NCBI GenBank assembly: GCA_019695095.1
Contig: JAIBAQ010000016.1
Location: forward strand, 1 to 60,633
From: Candidatus Hydrogenedentota bacterium
GTDB lineage: Bacteria; Hydrogenedentota; Hydrogenedentia; Hydrogenedentales; SLHB01
Length of the DNA: 60,633 bases
Direction: 5' to 3'
Shown here: positions 36,308 through 42,830 of the stretch, piece after piece
Layout: every line of letters begins with the position of its first letter
Position numbering within the stretch: position 1 is the first letter of the stretch
Notes under the pieces: generated by a model
Told to the model about the DNA's origin: nothing
The model's database searches: none
Seen by the model: the letters and a program-made list of their open reading frames with translations, nothing else
Made by a program: the position numbers and the translations under genes

Positions 36308-36333
36308 GGGCGAGGCTCCGAAGAGCCTCGCCC
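36308..36333. terminator. Terminator-like hairpin between convergent genes
   Basis: A perfect 11-bp stem (36308-36318 with 36323-36333) is closed by a CGAA tetraloop, between the class III enzyme (+) and the giant surface protein (-). No T-tract on either side. Confidence 0.55.
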
Positions 36334-36344
36334 TCCGCCTTAAC

Positions 36345-39300
36345 TCAAGTACCGGACGATGTTGCTTGTGTTGAGTGGATTCTCCGAAGGACTACCGCAG
36401 TCCCAATCAGTAGCAGCGCAACCAACGCGAGCCCCGGATACAACGGAACCGGCGGGACATCATTTGCATCCGTGGGACTGGCTCCTAACGCGACTTCGAG
36501 ACCATCCGAGAAACCGTCGCCGTCGCTGTCTGTGACAAAAGGATCTGATCCATACTGCAGAATCTCATCACCGTCGTTGAGTCCATCGTCATCGGTGTCC
36601 GCTACATACGGATCTGTCCCTGTGTCATGAGGCCCAACGTAATGCCCCGTGTTTGATTCATGGATGTCCAGCAGACCATCCCCGTCCGCATCGCCCCATT
36701 CACCCGCCAAGATGAAGTACGAGTAATCTCCACTTGAGGTCGCTTCAATCTTGTTTGTCGTAGGTTTAACACTGGACGGCAATTCGACGAATGGGCCCTC
36801 GGACGAAGTTGCTCCATACACTTTCAGAGTGGCTTCTCCAATGCCAAAGACTTCGGAGTTCAGGTACGTAAATCTCAACGTGCGGCTTCCCGCATTCAGA
36901 CGATTGGAATTCACGTGCCATGTAACATCCGCAACCTTTGTTAAGTCGGGCATGTTCACGTCCAGGTCATTTCGCGTGAGCAGAACCGTGGTCTGGCTGC
37001 TGGCATCTCCCTGCGCGAAATCAATCGATGCGCGTGCAGTCCCGAACGCTTGTGGGAGAGGATCGCCAGAGTGGCTCCAACGGCGAACCTCGGCGGTATC
37101 GGGCAAAGCGTCCCTGCTGAATGCGGTCGAGCCAAAGATCACGAATGCTTCACCGGCGGCCGTTCTGTTGTTGAGAGGTCCGTTGCCGCCGTAGTCTCCA
37201 ATCACGAGATCGTTCATCCCGTCGGCATTGACGTCACCGCCCATGCGATAGGAATGATAGGGCCCAACGCCATTGTAAAAGCGCATGTTCTCATCGCCTG
37301 CGGCGAAATCGATGCTTGCAGGAAGGTCGGATGAGCCGAATACAACGAATGCCTCAAAGAAGATCGAGCCATTGGGTTCATGGGCCGCCGCAAAAATATC
37401 TGCCACTCCATCCGCATTGATGTCTCCGGACGTGATCCATCCGTCATGCCCCAAATAAGCGGCCAATCCTCTTCCGTAGAAGCGTGTGTCCGGAGGGGTG
37501 GTGGCGAAGTCTACCGAGGCAGGCCATGTGGGCCGTCCATACATGATTAGCAGTTCGCCGCAATTCGAGCGTGCATTATCCGGACCGTCCGCTTCCGAGG
37601 CGGCCATGATTAGATCCTCGATGCCGTCTCCGGTGACGTCGGCTATGTCTATGCCGGCCTCGTCGGTCAGATAATCACGCTGATCTGCGCCGATGAGCGT
37701 AACGTCGGCGCCGCCATCTACAACGTTTAACGTTGAAGGAAGGCTCGGCGAACCGAATATGATGCACGCTTCACCGCAGTTGTACTTTGTTCCAGACAGG
37801 CCGTCGTACGAGTCCAATCCGAATACGATGTCTTCGATTCCATCGCCATTTAGATCGCCCAAATTGACGTTGGCCCATCCGTTCACGAAATGCACATCGC
37901 TTTCTCCACCGATTACGTCGATCAGGGCGGGCAAGGTTCTGGACCCGTAGACTGCATACGCGTTGGAAGAGTTTCTGCTGCCTAAAACGAGATCGTTGCC
38001 GCCGTCTCCGTTAATATCGCCAGCTCGCAGCACACCGGAGCACCCCAGCATCCACACGTCTTGCTCATTGTTTGCCAGGTCGACAACCGAAGGAAGAGCA
38101 GATGAACCATAAATCACGTAGGTACATCCGTCCTGTGGATGGGTATTCCCAGGACCATCCGCATACTCGGCAGCAGCAATAAGGTCTTCAATACCATCCA
38201 AATTGAGGTCTGCAAGCAACATCCAGCCCGGACTGGAAACATGGCTGGGATAAGCCAAATGGTCGTCGGTCTCCGCGCCGTAAATCGTGACGCTTTGCTC
38301 ATTCGCGGCAATGCTTATGGTCGATGGCCAGGAAGTCCTACCGTAGAGAACGTATATCTCCCCGGCATCTTGCCGCGCATTGGATGGCCCATCCGCCCAC
38401 GGGGCGCCGAGCACCACGTCCTTGATCCCATCGCCGTTCAAGTCCCCGAGCTTTACCAGGCCGGAGGTAGCCATCAAATCCATGGTATTCGCACCGGTAA
38501 TTATTACGTCGGGTTTTGGACCAAACTGCCCGTAGACGTCGCGAGTGCCGGAGAAACCAGGACCGCCAAAACAGATGTAGGCGTGGCCGCCAGAGGTCGG
38601 CCCGGAGGTGTCCTCCTCAGCGCCCAAGACGAGATCGTCGTATCCGTCGCCGTTTACGTCGCCCATGGCGATGGCTCCTCCCATCGTCATGCGGTCTTGA
38701 TCCGGTCCACCGTAAACAACGGAATCGCTGTCCGTCTGCAGGTCGAACTCGTTTTCAGCCTTGGCAGTGTAGGTCACTCGGTTGTCGACGCTCGTTGAGG
38801 GCGCGTTGGGATTGCCGCCGACATCAGAACAGGCTCCTGCCGGAACGGACGCTATAATCTGGCCACCGTGCTCCGCCCCGGTGATAGAGATTCGGAACCG
38901 GTCATTCCCGCTGATCGTCGTTACGGTAAACGTGACCTGTCCGGCTGTCCCCGAAATAACCACATCCGACGCATCGAAGCCGGTGACATCCTCACTGAAT
39001 GTCACGTCAAATAGAATTGGAAACACGAAAGTCGGATCTTCCTGGCCAAAGGACTGTTCCACCGTAACCGTGGGCGGAACCGGATCGACATATGCAACAC
39101 TGTTGTCGGCGCTTGTCGACGCCAGGTTGGTATTTCCCGCCAAGTCAGTACAACGGCCAGAAGCAATACTGGGTACTAGCGTGCCCGGAGTTTGGGCGCC
39201 CGTAACGAGGAGTGTGTACGCCGCCGAAGGCCCTGTCGGAGTGACACTAAAGGCGACACCTGTGGCAGTACCCCCCATTGTGATGTCGATTTTGTCGAAG

Positions 39301-42300
39301 TTCGTCACGGCCCGTTCAAACTGAATATCGAACCGGATGGGCACGTCCGAGGTCGGATCCGCCTGACCAGCGCCTTGCTCGACAGTTACATGGGGATGCG
39401 CCGAGGTTGTGATGCTGAAGTCCGCGTTACTGAGGTCATTGACGTGCGAATTACTCTCAGAGACAACCTTGATTCGATAATCGTTGCCCAGCACTACGTC
39501 CGAGGGAATACTCCAGTTCCAGCTCCCCGCCGAGGCAGCAACGCCCGAGCCGAGAGTGCGGACCACCGCACGATGTTTCAGCAGATCAATACGAATCGTG
39601 CCCGTCACTCCGGAATTGGCCCATGTGATTGCATAACTCTGGCCCAAATTCCACGTTTCGGATCCGTTTGGAGTCGTGACGGACAAAGGATGCGCGTCAA
39701 CGATTTGCGGATCCGTTCCATTTCCATACTCTTCCGCATTGCCGTAGCCGTCTCCGTCCGGATCGGCGTCAGGCCCGTTTGCGCCAGTACCCACATACGG
39801 ATCCAGTCCCTGTTCAGATTCCCATTCGTCGGGCATTCCATCGCCGTCGCTGTCTGTATCCATGAAATTGGGTAGCGCGTCTCCATCGGGATCCGACGCC
39901 CCCTCTGAGCTGTCAGGCAGCGAATCGTCGTCAGAATCCGGATCAAGATAATTGGGAGTTGTATCGCCGTCGGTGTCGAGCGTGGATTCGATTACATCTG
40001 GGATGCCGTCTGCATCAGAATCGATCTGCGTTGCATCGAACACCCACAACTCCTCGCCATGCACACCGTCGTTTGCCAGGAAGTACACAAGATTCCCGAT
40101 AGTGCAAAACGCATACGGGTTGCTATTGAATACGCCCGGGGCAATGTCTTGGAGCAATCGCGTACCCGCGGGTGTCCCGTCGGTCCACCAGAGTTCCACC
40201 CCGCTGTCGCCATCACTGGCGGCGAACAGCGCAAAATCCCGGTGTGTGCCGACAGTGCCTACGATGATCCGGGCAATCGGGAGCGGTATGGGGAGTTCTG
40301 GGTATTGGATAGAGCTGGAGGCGCCGGAATAGATGTCTCCAAGCAGAATCGTGCCCGCTGATGTGCCATCGGTTACCCAGACTTCACGGCCATGATCCGG
40401 ATCGTTGGCCGTGAAGAGGAGCCTATTGCCCAGCCTTGTCAGATCCCGCGGATCGCCAGCCGTTGCGCCAGGGAACAAGTCTGCAACCATTGCGGTGCCC
40501 GCTTGGGTGCCGTCTGACTTCCAGAGTTCCCGTCCATGTGGATTCGGTGCCCACGGAGATAGGCCGTCCTCTGCAGAGAAGTAGACCGTGTCGTTTACTT
40601 GCGTAAATTTGTCGGGTCGCGAATCCAATCCATCCGGGGCGATATTCTTCACCAGAACGGTCCCGGTGGCCGTGCCATCGGTTTTGAACAATTCGATACC
40701 GACGTTGTTGCCGCCATCCCCCTCGAAGTAGATGGAATCGCCGATCGCGGTAAGCAGATCTCCCGCGCCCAAGCGCTTGACGAATCCCGTTCCCAAGGCT
40801 GTCCCGTTACTTCGCCAGAGGTCGAATCCCGATCCTCCTCCATGCGCGTCAAAGTAAAGATAACCGTTGAGGTAAGTCAAATTTGATGGCGACGAACCTT
40901 CCCCGGCGGTCCGGTTAATATCTTTGACGAGAGTGGTGCCTGCGGCAGTTCCGTCACTGGACCAGACTTCATAACCGTGGATGCCGTCGTCGGCGGCAAA
41001 ATATGCCTTTCCATCCACATCGGTGAAGTCGGGCGTATATGTGCTCAGGAACGACGCCACGGAACTCTCGCTCCCGGAGCGAATGTCTTTTACGATACTT
41101 GTTCCCGCCGAGGTGCCATCGCTGGCGTATACTTCGTATCCAGTTGCGGGCTCGTATGCAGTGAAGAATACTTTTGAGCCAACTCGTTGCAGGTATTGCG
41201 GCCCCGAAGAATCGGTCCCCGGTCTCAAGTCCTTGACAATCAGAGTGCCGGCCGCCGTTCCATTACTGCGCCATAACTCGGTGCCGTGTGTGAAATCGTT
41301 TGCGGAGAAATAGAGATTTCCGCCCATATCGATAAGACCGCTAATATAGGATCCCGGTGCGCCGGACCGAATATTGCGCACGCGAACCGTACCTGACACG
41401 GAGCCGTCCGTCTTCCACAGTTCGATCCCCCTTGTGCCGTCATCCGCGGCGAACATGACTGAAGCTCCCACGGTCGTGAGTTGAGTCGGAATAGAAGCGG
41501 CAGTCCCCGGGAAAATGTCCTGGACTCGTGCGGTTCCAGCGGAGGTGCCGTCAGTACGCCAGAGTTCGCGGCCCCCCGAAGCGTCCGCCGCGGGAAAGTA
41601 GAGGTAGCCGCCCAACACCGCAAACGAGGGAGGAAAGTGCGTAGTGTCCAGCGAGCTACTGCTTCCGGCGGCGATATCTTTCACCATCGCCGTTCCCGCG
41701 ACCGTCCCGTTACTGATCCAGAGTTCGCGCCCGTTGGCGGCAGTACCTGCCGCGAAGTACACATTGGAGCCAACAGCGTAGAGATTGGTGGCCCCACTAC
41801 TGCCCGTGCCGGCCACTATGTCGGAGACGAGAACCGTTCCAGCAGAGGTGCCGTCGCTTTTCCAAAGTTCCTGCCCAGACGCTTCGTTTATTGCCGAGAA
41901 GAAGAGCGTTCCGTTCGCATTGACCATATCGCGAATATACGAATCCGCTGCGCCAGGGTTGATGTCCTTGACCATTACCGTCCCGGCAGATGTACCATCG
42001 CTTTTCCAGAGTTCGAAACCATTTGTAAAGCCGTCTGCAGCATAAAAGAAGAGCGTGTTGCCCACCACAGTGAAGTTTTCGGGTTGAGAAATGGCAAACG
42101 CCTTTACAGATACGGTGCCGGCCTCGGTTCCATCGCTTTTCCAAAGTCCAATTGGCTGGCTGACGCCATTGTGGGCGGCGAAGTAAACAGTCCCATTCAT
42201 AACGGTCAAGTCGCGAGGATCGCTGCTGCCGGTAGAAGAAACGTCTTTCACAAGGACAGTACCAGCTTCCGTGCCGTCCGTCTTCCAGAGCTCGCGACCG

Positions 42301-42830
42301 TGCGTGCCATCGTTGGCAACGAAATACAAAACCCCGCCCGAAAGGGCAAACTCGGCCGGTTCCGAACCGTCGGGGCCAGGGAGTATGTCCTTTACACGGA
42401 CAGTCCCAGACCGGGTACCGTCGGTGCGCCACAACTCCTTACCCGATACGCCATCGTTCGCACAGAATAGTACGTATGGCGTAAGTGCAATGAGACGTGT
42501 GGGTTCCGAACTTGCCGTGCCCGGATAGATGTCGCGAACAAGACCGGTGGTGCCTTCTGTTCCATCGCTTTTCCACAGCTCGCGCCCCTCTCCGTCCGTT
42601 TGACTGCTGAAGAATAGGCGGTTTCCCAAGACAGCGAACTGTTGAGGAGACGATCCGAGGTCCGAAGTCGGCTGAGGCAGAATATCCTTGACGAGAGTCG
42701 CCGATTGGGCCCAAGCGACGGTTAGTGTGGAGACGCACAAGAGAATGAGGAGTCTCAAAAGAAACTTACACGGTTTGGGCCGAAGGATATACGGCGACAC
42801 AATGACACGAAATCCAATTTTATAAGGCAT
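36345..42830 (-). CDS. Giant secreted ELWxxDGT-repeat / FG-GAP surface protein with C-terminal sorting signal
   Basis: Protein of 2161 residues. A signal peptide (LLRLLILLCVSTLTVAWAQ) is followed by about 17-18 repeats of roughly 50 residues with core GRELWKSDGTxAGTxxVKDI (about 45-935). Next are Asp-rich thrombospondin type 3-like calcium repeats (about 940-1030), an Ig-like segment (NGSETWNLGQSYAITW, about 1050) and two related Ig-like domains (VEQ.xGQxDPT, about 1150-1350). Then come eight FG-GAP integrin-like repeats (GDxNGDGxxDLVLGA, about 1380-1880) and a second Asp-rich calcium stretch (2050-2125). A final hydrophobic segment plus RR (LALVALLLIGTAVVLRR) resembles a CTERM-type sorting or anchoring signal. 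AGGGGGA precedes the ATG. It stands alone. A calcium-dependent adhesin or matrix protein is the likely role. Confidence 0.88.
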   Translation of the reverse strand: MPYKIGFRVIVSPYILRPKPCKFLLRLLILLCVSTLTVAWAQSATLVKDILPQPTSDLGSSPQQFAVLGNRLFFSSQTDGEGRELWKSDGTEGTTGLVRDIYPGTASSEPTRLIALTPYVLFCANDGVSGKELWRTDGTRSGTVRVKDILPGPDGSEPAEFALSGGVLYFVANDGTHGRELWKTDGTEAGTVLVKDVSSTGSSDPRDLTVMNGTVYFAAHNGVSQPIGLWKSDGTEAGTVSVKAFAISQPENFTVVGNTLFFYAADGFTNGFELWKSDGTSAGTVMVKDINPGAADSYIRDMVNANGTLFFSAINEASGQELWKSDGTSAGTVLVSDIVAGTGSSGATNLYAVGSNVYFAAGTAANGRELWISNGTVAGTAMVKDIAAGSSSSLDTTHFPPSFAVLGGYLYFPAADASGGRELWRTDGTSAGTARVQDIFPGTAASIPTQLTTVGASVMFAADDGTRGIELWKTDGSVSGTVRVRNIRSGAPGSYISGLIDMGGNLYFSANDFTHGTELWRSNGTAAGTLIVKDLRPGTDSSGPQYLQRVGSKVFFTAYEPATGYEVYASDGTSAGTSIVKDIRSGSESSVASFLSTYTPDFTDVDGKAYFAADDGIHGYEVWSSDGTAAGTTLVKDINRTAGEGSSPSNLTYLNGYLYFDAHGGGSGFDLWRSNGTALGTGFVKRLGAGDLLTAIGDSIYFEGDGGNNVGIELFKTDGTATGTVLVKNIAPDGLDSRPDKFTQVNDTVYFSAEDGLSPWAPNPHGRELWKSDGTQAGTAMVADLFPGATAGDPRDLTRLGNRLLFTANDPDHGREVWVTDGTSAGTILLGDIYSGASSSIQYPELPIPLPIARIIVGTVGTHRDFALFAASDGDSGVELWWTDGTPAGTRLLQDIAPGVFNSNPYAFCTIGNLVYFLANDGVHGEELWVFDATQIDSDADGIPDVIESTLDTDGDTTPNYLDPDSDDDSLPDSSEGASDPDGDALPNFMDTDSDGDGMPDEWESEQGLDPYVGTGANGPDADPDGDGYGNAEEYGNGTDPQIVDAHPLSVTTPNGSETWNLGQSYAITWANSGVTGTIRIDLLKHRAVVRTLGSGVAASAGSWNWSIPSDVVLGNDYRIKVVSESNSHVNDLSNADFSITTSAHPHVTVEQGAGQADPTSDVPIRFDIQFERAVTNFDKIDITMGGTATGVAFSVTPTGPSAAYTLLVTGAQTPGTLVPSIASGRCTDLAGNTNLASTSADNSVAYVDPVPPTVTVEQSFGQEDPTFVFPILFDVTFSEDVTGFDASDVVISGTAGQVTFTVTTISGNDRFRISITGAEHGGQIIASVPAGACSDVGGNPNAPSTSVDNRVTYTAKAENEFDLQTDSDSVVYGGPDQDRMTMGGAIAMGDVNGDGYDDLVLGAEEDTSGPTSGGHAYICFGGPGFSGTRDVYGQFGPKPDVIITGANTMDLMATSGLVKLGDLNGDGIKDVVLGAPWADGPSNARQDAGEIYVLYGRTSWPSTISIAANEQSVTIYGAETDDHLAYPSHVSSPGWMLLADLNLDGIEDLIAAAEYADGPGNTHPQDGCTYVIYGSSALPSVVDLANNEQDVWMLGCSGVLRAGDINGDGGNDLVLGSRNSSNAYAVYGSRTLPALIDVIGGESDVHFVNGWANVNLGDLNGDGIEDIVFGLDSYDGLSGTKYNCGEACIIFGSPSLPSTLNVVDGGADVTLIGADQRDYLTDEAGIDIADVTGDGIEDLIMAASEADGPDNARSNCGELLIMYGRPTWPASVDFATTPPDTRFYGRGLAAYLGHDGWITSGDINADGVADIFAAAHEPNGSIFFEAFVVFGSSDLPASIDFAAGDENMRFYNGVGPYHSYRMGGDVNADGMNDLVIGDYGGNGPLNNRTAAGEAFVIFGSTAFSRDALPDTAEVRRWSHSGDPLPQAFGTARASIDFAQGDASSQTTVLLTRNDLDVNMPDLTKVADVTWHVNSNRLNAGSRTLRFTYLNSEVFGIGEATLKVYGATSSEGPFVELPSSVKPTTNKIEATSSGDYSYFILAGEWGDADGDGLLDIHESNTGHYVGPHDTGTDPYVADTDDDGLNDGDEILQYGSDPFVTDSDGDGFSDGLEVALGASPTDANDVPPVPLYPGLALVALLLIGTAVVLRRIHSTQATSSGT

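Follow-up and report, generated by a model that had tools for sequence, protein, structure and literature searches.

A recurrent C-terminal tail on a 2161-residue two-propeller protein points to a little-known sorting system of Hydrogenedentota

What kind of protein joins two different propeller-like repeat systems to a sorting-type tail, and which enzyme would process that tail? The question is raised by a gene at 36345..42830 on the minus strand of a 60,633-nucleotide stretch of DNA (the window) from Candidatus Hydrogenedentota bacterium (GCA_019695095.1, contig JAIBAQ010000016.1). The open reading frame (ORF; C16 of this genome, G000, which comprises 405 contigs and is 95% complete) starts with ATG, has a GGGGGA stretch just ahead of it (by eye) and encodes a predicted secreted multi-repeat protein of 2161 residues. 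The original prediction described a single-gene mosaic of ELWxxDGT (ELW), calcium-binding, Ig-like and FG-GAP repeats ending in a tail that could identify the sorting system of the lineage. The ORF as well as Pfam and NCBIfam scans agree with this anatomy, and an ortholog from another genus (L208) supports it. As set out below, similar tails occur across the genome and the phylum, and the tail points to a little-known sorting system of Hydrogenedentota.

The tail of the 2161-residue protein (VPPVPLYPGLALVALLLIGTAVVLRR.., residues 2125-2161; 36348..36458, minus strand) has a hydropathy of 2.48 and a short basic end with two Arg. When its last TSP3 loop and tail were used together as a 51-residue query, ten places in the genome were found, including the query itself. 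Four other ORFs matched across both loop and tail with E 1.4e-6 or better; the matches in C19 and C20 cover TSP3 residues without the tail. A profile of six tails with TSP3 (A1) was searched against 62 genomes of the phylum with at least 80% completeness and matched in 50 of them at E 1e-4, TSP3-only matches being counted as well. Of its 30 returned loci, 28 show a TSP3 loop followed by a hydrophobic stretch and then the stop codon; one further locus (L043) reaches its sequence end and another (L063) lacks a tail. A second profile (A2), made from 29 tails without the TSP3 loop, matched 12 places in the genome, namely six training tails (E 1e-11 or better) and six new ones (E 2.7e-6 to 8.5e-3). 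In five of the new ORFs the stop follows no more than 53 residues after the start of the match, with no TSP3 just ahead of the match; in the sixth, C31, the match is internal. C254, one of the five, is fragmentary and lies at the end of a contig. Altogether, 11 ORFs in the genome terminate in the tail, some of them without TSP3, so that the tail recurs, as predicted, on other proteins of the genome, ten in number. C61 and C142 carry looser versions, and the tail of C58 reads SSAVPIAAWPVALVLLAVGTVIVRRARKQ. A signal-peptide-like N terminus was recognized by eye in 11 of 13 further ORFs, the remaining two being truncated by contig ends.

As a control, A2 was searched against 36 genomes of other phyla, which had mostly been obtained via TSP3-like sequence (they underlie 36 of the 79 other loci of a contig scan). 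The best match there had E 0.0033, and five of the 36 genomes gave any match at E 0.01; four of the new matches in the genome, with E 2.7e-6 to 4.6e-4, are clear of this level. A third profile (A3; 30 tails, 29 positions) identified 61 places in 29 of the 62 phylum genomes at E 0.001, many of the matched places having also trained it. When A1 matches extending into the tail are added, 35 of the 62 genomes possess a tail and 27 are without a detected one. The phylum consensus is xPxVPLxxWPxxxxLLxxGxxxxxRRRxx, and within the genome it approximates VP[LVI]xxWPxxxxLLxxGxxxxRR.

This layout, a signal peptide (by eye) combined with a C-terminal helix and basic residues, is that of the PEP-CTERM model of Haft et al. 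2006, which comprises a signal peptide, a motif, a helix and a basic end on several proteins (PMC1569441). The recurrence of the tail at protein termini, together with signal peptide, motif, helix and basic end, leads us to take it, by analogy with that model, as a sorting signal of Hydrogenedentota present on about a dozen proteins in the genome. A plain C-terminal membrane anchor, which would stay uncut and leave the protein in the inner membrane, extending into the periplasm, would require just the hydrophobic stretch and the Arg residues, and a tail identity of just 35% to the ortholog fits such an anchor. It would, however, have no need of the VP[LVI]xxWP-like motif that recurs ahead of the helix in a variety of proteins, both inside single genomes and from one genome to the next. 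Further evidence against an anchor, which we consider quite unlikely, comes from an exosortase of the genome that lacks an evident partner and from a second signal-peptide-like stretch following the tail in nine phylum ORFs (see below).

Which known system, then, might the sorting signal belong to? When eight tails were scanned against NCBIfam and eight against Pfam, no sorting model reached its cut-off. Weak matches to some of 30 tails were seen for 24 NCBIfam families (best E 6e-4; cut-offs shown for the first tail only), most frequently LAVTG and MYXO-CTERM with six of the 30 tails each. The invariant Cys ahead of the helix that defines MYXO-CTERM (PMC11980579) is absent from the tail of the 2161-residue protein, which speaks against this assignment. 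LPXTG/sortase was rejected with no PF04203 match in the genome at E 1, and Por (type IX) secretion with no match to the PF18962 tail at E 0.001. The tail likewise contains no Pro-Glu-Pro and does not match the PEP_CTERM model, which weakly matches three of the 30 phylum tails (best E 0.024). IPTL-CTERM was rejected as the identity of the tail, PF18203 (cut-off 20.8 bits) having no match in the genome at E 0.01. Elsewhere in the phylum, IPTL-CTERM gave 19 matches in 15 of the 62 genomes at E 0.01, and some of these are tails of the VPAAG or VPTVN type. L232, L234, L236 and L237 (from G012, G001, G014 and G011) have VPAAG/VPTVN-like tails followed by a helix and an Arg end; tails of this type are perhaps a second variant in the phylum.

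The original prediction further anticipated a sorting enzyme in the genome. We found four exosortases of family PF09721 (C9, C12, C112 and C296) and no sortase; with these enzymes and the ten other tail-bearing ORFs, the idea that the tail could identify a sorting system holds up. Three of the enzymes have contexts of their own. C112 is XrtD/XrtW-like with a fused EpsI and lies in an EPS-like locus (locus by eye). Near the EpsH-like C12, at a distance of about 1 kb, a protein ends in a PEP-type tail (by eye). C296 is XrtQ/XrtN-like and sits directly behind a gene for a 922-residue protein that matches the 'XrtN system VIT domain' family with 119 bits (cut-off 250) and terminates in a PEP-like tail, IPGIPEPSEW followed by a helix and Arg; these two (L032:646-4866) probably form a dedicated pair. 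The fourth enzyme, C9, is XrtH-like and as a whole protein barely reaches the cut-off of TIGR04177 (86.1 bits; cut-off 86). It adjoins a 185-residue protein matching XrtH_assoc (NF041730; 22 bits, E 1e-4), and at L066 a part with a similarly weak XrtH_assoc match is fused to the enzyme. Cys, Arg and His belong to the exosortase core, and each of the 13 enzymes that were aligned, C9 included, retains all three. Because the other three exosortases have their own contexts, C9 has no evident partner and the genome lacks IPTL-CTERM, we propose by elimination that C9, a divergent exosortase H, is the best candidate for processing the tail.

Across the 62 phylum genomes, XrtH-like enzymes (E <1e-15) occur in 46 and EpsH-type enzymes (E <1e-19) in 27. 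These distributions also bear on whether a different protease, be it an EpsH-type exosortase, a candidate rhomboid or a candidate CPBP (myxosortase-like) protease, might cut the tail. EpsH-type enzymes are present in the genome, two genomes combine the tail and EpsH-type enzymes without a detected XrtH-like one, and four have the tail with neither. A precedent for CPBP proteases exists in MYXO-CTERM, which is processed by such an enzyme according to PMC11980579. On the other side, 13 genomes have the tail and XrtH-like enzymes without the EpsH type, and the tail of the 2161-residue protein lacks both PEP and the Cys that is invariant in MYXO-CTERM. Cleavage by one of these other proteases appears unlikely.

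Not all tails are terminal. In 19 of the 30 A3 loci whose frames were read, the tail is internal in nine and terminal in nine, and L204 is a short frame. The nine ORFs with an internal tail (L251, L252, L253, L254, L255, L256, L257, L195 and L198, from genomes of the phylum) each begin with a secreted module, continue through a VPLxxWP-type helix and a basic run into another signal-peptide-like stretch, which ends near AxA, and finish with a second secreted module. L195 and L198 were seen in part; the seven read further all have a signal-peptide-like start (by eye), and L253 is C-terminally truncated. Some of the second modules resemble what we take to be formylglycine-enzyme-type domains. These ORFs could encode natural polyproteins or membrane hairpins. 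In C31 (L250:487-2523) and L231 (G039), both Ig-like secreted ORFs, a tail-like helix is followed in frame by a prepilin-like segment of type IV (FTLxELLxVIxIIGILAA). A bolder, tentative and on balance doubtful reading is that the tails form an undescribed VP[LVI]xxWP-CTERM class read by divergent exosortase H, and that the ORFs with internal signals are split into two surface proteins.

What would such a system deliver in the case of the 2161-residue protein? All of its parts are encoded on the minus strand. A signal peptide is predicted by eye at residues 1-41 (..LLILLCVSTLTVAWA|QS; 42708..42830), with a putative cleavage site AWA|QS. It is followed by 18 ELWxxDGT repeats (residues 45-935; 40026..42698), which match TIGR04534 in 18 stretches with 937.6 bits (NCBIfam; cut-off 65). 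A regular expression found 17 motifs from residue 132 on, and one more was seen by eye at residue 84; the motifs extend to residue 927, mostly at a spacing of 48 residues. The predicted repeat system of 'about 17' units thus stands, with the exact number being 18. The region was proposed for structure prediction, and AlphaFold2 returned beta-propellers: for residues 45-935 with 14 relatives, the mean predicted local distance difference test score (pLDDT) was 82.7 and the predicted template modelling score 0.54, each repeat comprising about four strands. Mostly propeller proteins were among the 50 rows that Foldseek gave for the model. Their template modelling scores were low (0.14-0.33 of the query), as a query with multiple domains would lead one to expect, and we claim just the propeller fold. 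In VIA-align, a re-examination of the Foldseek matches, the first is the designed protein Cake10 (Z 22.7, 340 residues, root-mean-square deviation 3.6, model residues 1-889) and the third is a bacterial DPP4 (Z 17.5, 348 residues, deviation 4.0, model residues 13-450). Identities of the structural matches are about 10%, and at the sequence level the ELW profile had no match among solved structures at E 0.1. In the model, this region forms an array of beta-propellers.

The first of two TSP3-like calcium stretches, which is rich in Asp (residues 936-1050; 39681..40025; 61% identical to the ortholog), leads to a Kre9/KNH-like Ig domain (residues 1053-1131; 39438..39674; PF10342, 41.7 bits, over its cut-off) and two Big_12 Ig-like domains (residues ~1136-1355; 38766..39425; outer limits by eye). 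PF19078 matches the latter in two stretches with 32 bits, over its cut-off, the best being residues 1266-1347. Next comes the FG-GAP propeller (residues ~1356-1930; 37041..38765), in which a regular expression detected eight DxNxDGxxD loops at residues 1391-1874. Both family score and calcium-type loops mark it as FG-GAP, PF01839 scoring 60 bits (cut-off 22.1), and its sequence profile matched integrin alpha-5 chains among solved structures (E 1.3e-6). An AlphaFold model of the FG-GAP half, made from two sequences, had a pLDDT of 27.9 and was not used. The post-propeller stretch (residues 1931-2040; 36711..37040) has no Pfam match listed at E 0.01 and is 42% identical to the ortholog. A second TSP3-like calcium stretch (residues 2041-2122; 36465..36710; 55% identity) then leads into the tail. 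DxDxD loops were found by regular expression at residues 937-1026 and 2047-2106; TSP3_bac (PF18884) scores 22.4 bits on the whole protein, under its 25-bit cut-off, and 28.5 bits when just the C-terminal 61 residues are scored. The eight FG-GAP repeats, the Asp-rich calcium stretches and the Ig-like domains named in the original prediction were accordingly all recovered.

From this anatomy, the protein is likely a calcium-stabilised surface adhesin or matrix protein. It might instead be a secreted propeller array that senses ligands or binds a substrate, for example a polysaccharide destined for degradation. That ELW repeats also occur in a putative Ser/Thr kinase (C144, by eye), so that their fold could serve as a sensor, and that Foldseek lists GH74 and VIA-align DPP4 propellers would fit such a function. 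The structural matches stand at the low identity given above, though, and no catalytic domain was found in the Pfam and NCBIfam scans of the protein, so that we rate this role as improbable.

Forty-three ELW repeat matches in the genome fall into four ORFs (C16, which is the 2161-residue protein, C58, C304 and C144), and 11 of the 21 genomes of the family, G000 among them, contain ELW repeats (E 1e-14). In C144 (L029:2797-5223) they make up the C-terminal part of the putative kinase, and the ORF adjoins a putative FHA plus sigma-54 AAA regulator (all by eye). L224 and L225 (G044) likewise show a putative Ser/Thr kinase (by eye) followed by ELWxxDGT repeats; in such kinase-like ORFs the propellers are perhaps used as a sensor. 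We found no literature on ELWxxDGT. When 22 ELW ORFs, several of them truncated by stretch ends, were compared, L208 was the only one to align past residue 950 among the 40 alignment rows listed, and as some ORFs (L210, L214 and others) are incomplete at stretch ends, further joined forms may exist.

This ortholog (G050:C260, L208:1283-7894) can be aligned along its whole length, with 47.8% identity in 2170 columns and the parts in the same order. Identity amounts to 51% in the ELW region, 61% in the first TSP3 stretch, 56% each in Kre9 and Big_12, 42% each in FG-GAP and the post-propeller stretch, 55% in the second TSP3 stretch and 35% in the tail. The whole arrangement is conserved in another genus, more than chance would account for. 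No further gene is common to the surroundings of the two genes, and a whole-protein contig scan, of which the best 80 of 321 relatives were considered, yielded chiefly matches to TSP3 and Ig parts, with no evident ortholog among them. Within the window, the neighbours encode a trypsin-like protease with PDZ, a convergent class III aminotransferase, an acyl-CoA dehydrogenase and Gfo/Idh/MocA oxidoreductases, and a gene for an APH-family protein lies about 470 bases upstream on the same strand; these genes have no evident link to the 2161-residue protein. Directly past the stop codon, before the convergent aminotransferase gene is reached, two inverted 11-base arms enclose a TTCG loop (GGGCGAGGCTC-TTCG-GAGCCTCGCCC, positions 36308-36333), a repeat that appears terminator-like by eye.

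Combining these observations, we lean slightly towards a calcium-stabilised modular surface protein whose tail is cut most likely by an XrtH-like exosortase. The protein would be exported by Sec, and its C-terminal helix would retain it in the inner membrane, oriented so that the Arg end faces the cytoplasm and the VPxVPL motif lies on the outer side of the membrane. Cleavage at this motif would then fall to a membrane protease, most likely C9, after which the protein would move to the surface of the cell or into the matrix. There, the ELWxxDGT and FG-GAP propeller regions may act as binding heads kept apart by the TSP3 stretches and Ig-like domains. Cleavage, pairing with XrtH, surface location and adhesion are all inferred.

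Several observations weigh against this proposal. In the genome scan C9 scores 80.8 bits, under the TIGR04177 cut-off, and its match spans model positions 63-154 of 158; the XrtH_assoc match of its neighbour is under the 35-bit cut-off, and no tail protein was seen beside C9 (by eye). Co-occurrence of the tail with XrtH-like enzymes is suggestive, not significant (Fisher p 0.05-0.11; p 0.12-0.21 for the EpsH type), and as the 62 genomes are related, the p-values themselves lack independence. XrtH-like enzymes without a detected tail occur in 17 genomes, and of the four tail-bearing genomes with neither enzyme, one (G006) has a weaker PF09721 match. The tail of the 2161-residue protein itself has just two Arg and no Trp and a weak E of 1.3e-4 despite having trained the profile. 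No conserved neighbours of the gene were found. Finally, two of the new A2 matches (C116, E 0.0022; C31, E 0.0085) are near the best control value, and IPTL-CTERM is over its cut-off in 10 of the 62 genomes, G000 not among them; in these 10 the XrtH-like enzyme may serve the IPTL-CTERM proteins instead. The two weak A2 matches and the occurrence of IPTL-CTERM in other genomes of the phylum slightly lowered our confidence in the proposal.

We found no literature on protein sorting or exosortases in Hydrogenedentota, and the part of PMC3909097 available to us describes no such system. A phylum-wide tail with a candidate enzyme would allow many surface proteins of Hydrogenedentota to be listed from sequence, and pairing of an XrtH-type enzyme with a non-IPTL tail becomes directly testable. 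If the reading of the internal tails is true, exosortase and signal peptidase would jointly produce two surface proteins from a single translated chain. The 2161-residue protein itself would represent a large two-propeller calcium scaffold conserved across genera.

How does it compare with known systems? With the ELWxxDGT proteins of TIGR04534 it shares the repeats, 18 in number and far over the cut-off, and it differs in that an FG-GAP region and a sorting tail follow them in one protein. The integrin alpha propeller consists of seven FG-GAP repeats; the region described here resembles it in its calcium-type loops and its match to integrin alpha-5, but has eight loops and belongs to a bacterial protein with a sorting tail. 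As in PEP-CTERM/EpsH, a short motif, a transmembrane helix and a basic end occur in multiple copies on proteins with signal peptides, in a genome with exosortases. In contrast to that system, the tail has the consensus ~VP[LVI]xxWP in place of Pro-Glu-Pro, and EpsH-type enzymes are undetected in 17 of the 35 tail-bearing genomes. IPTL-CTERM is presumably the substrate of XrtH (TIGR04177). One IPTL-CTERM protein described in PMC8671808 is an S-layer protein. The motif here is not IPTL, and PF18203 has no match in the genome; the likeness to IPTL-CTERM/XrtH lies in an enzyme of the same family at its cut-off, an adjoining XrtH-associated-like protein, dispersed substrates and the many tails with a proline motif shortly ahead of Trp (by eye).

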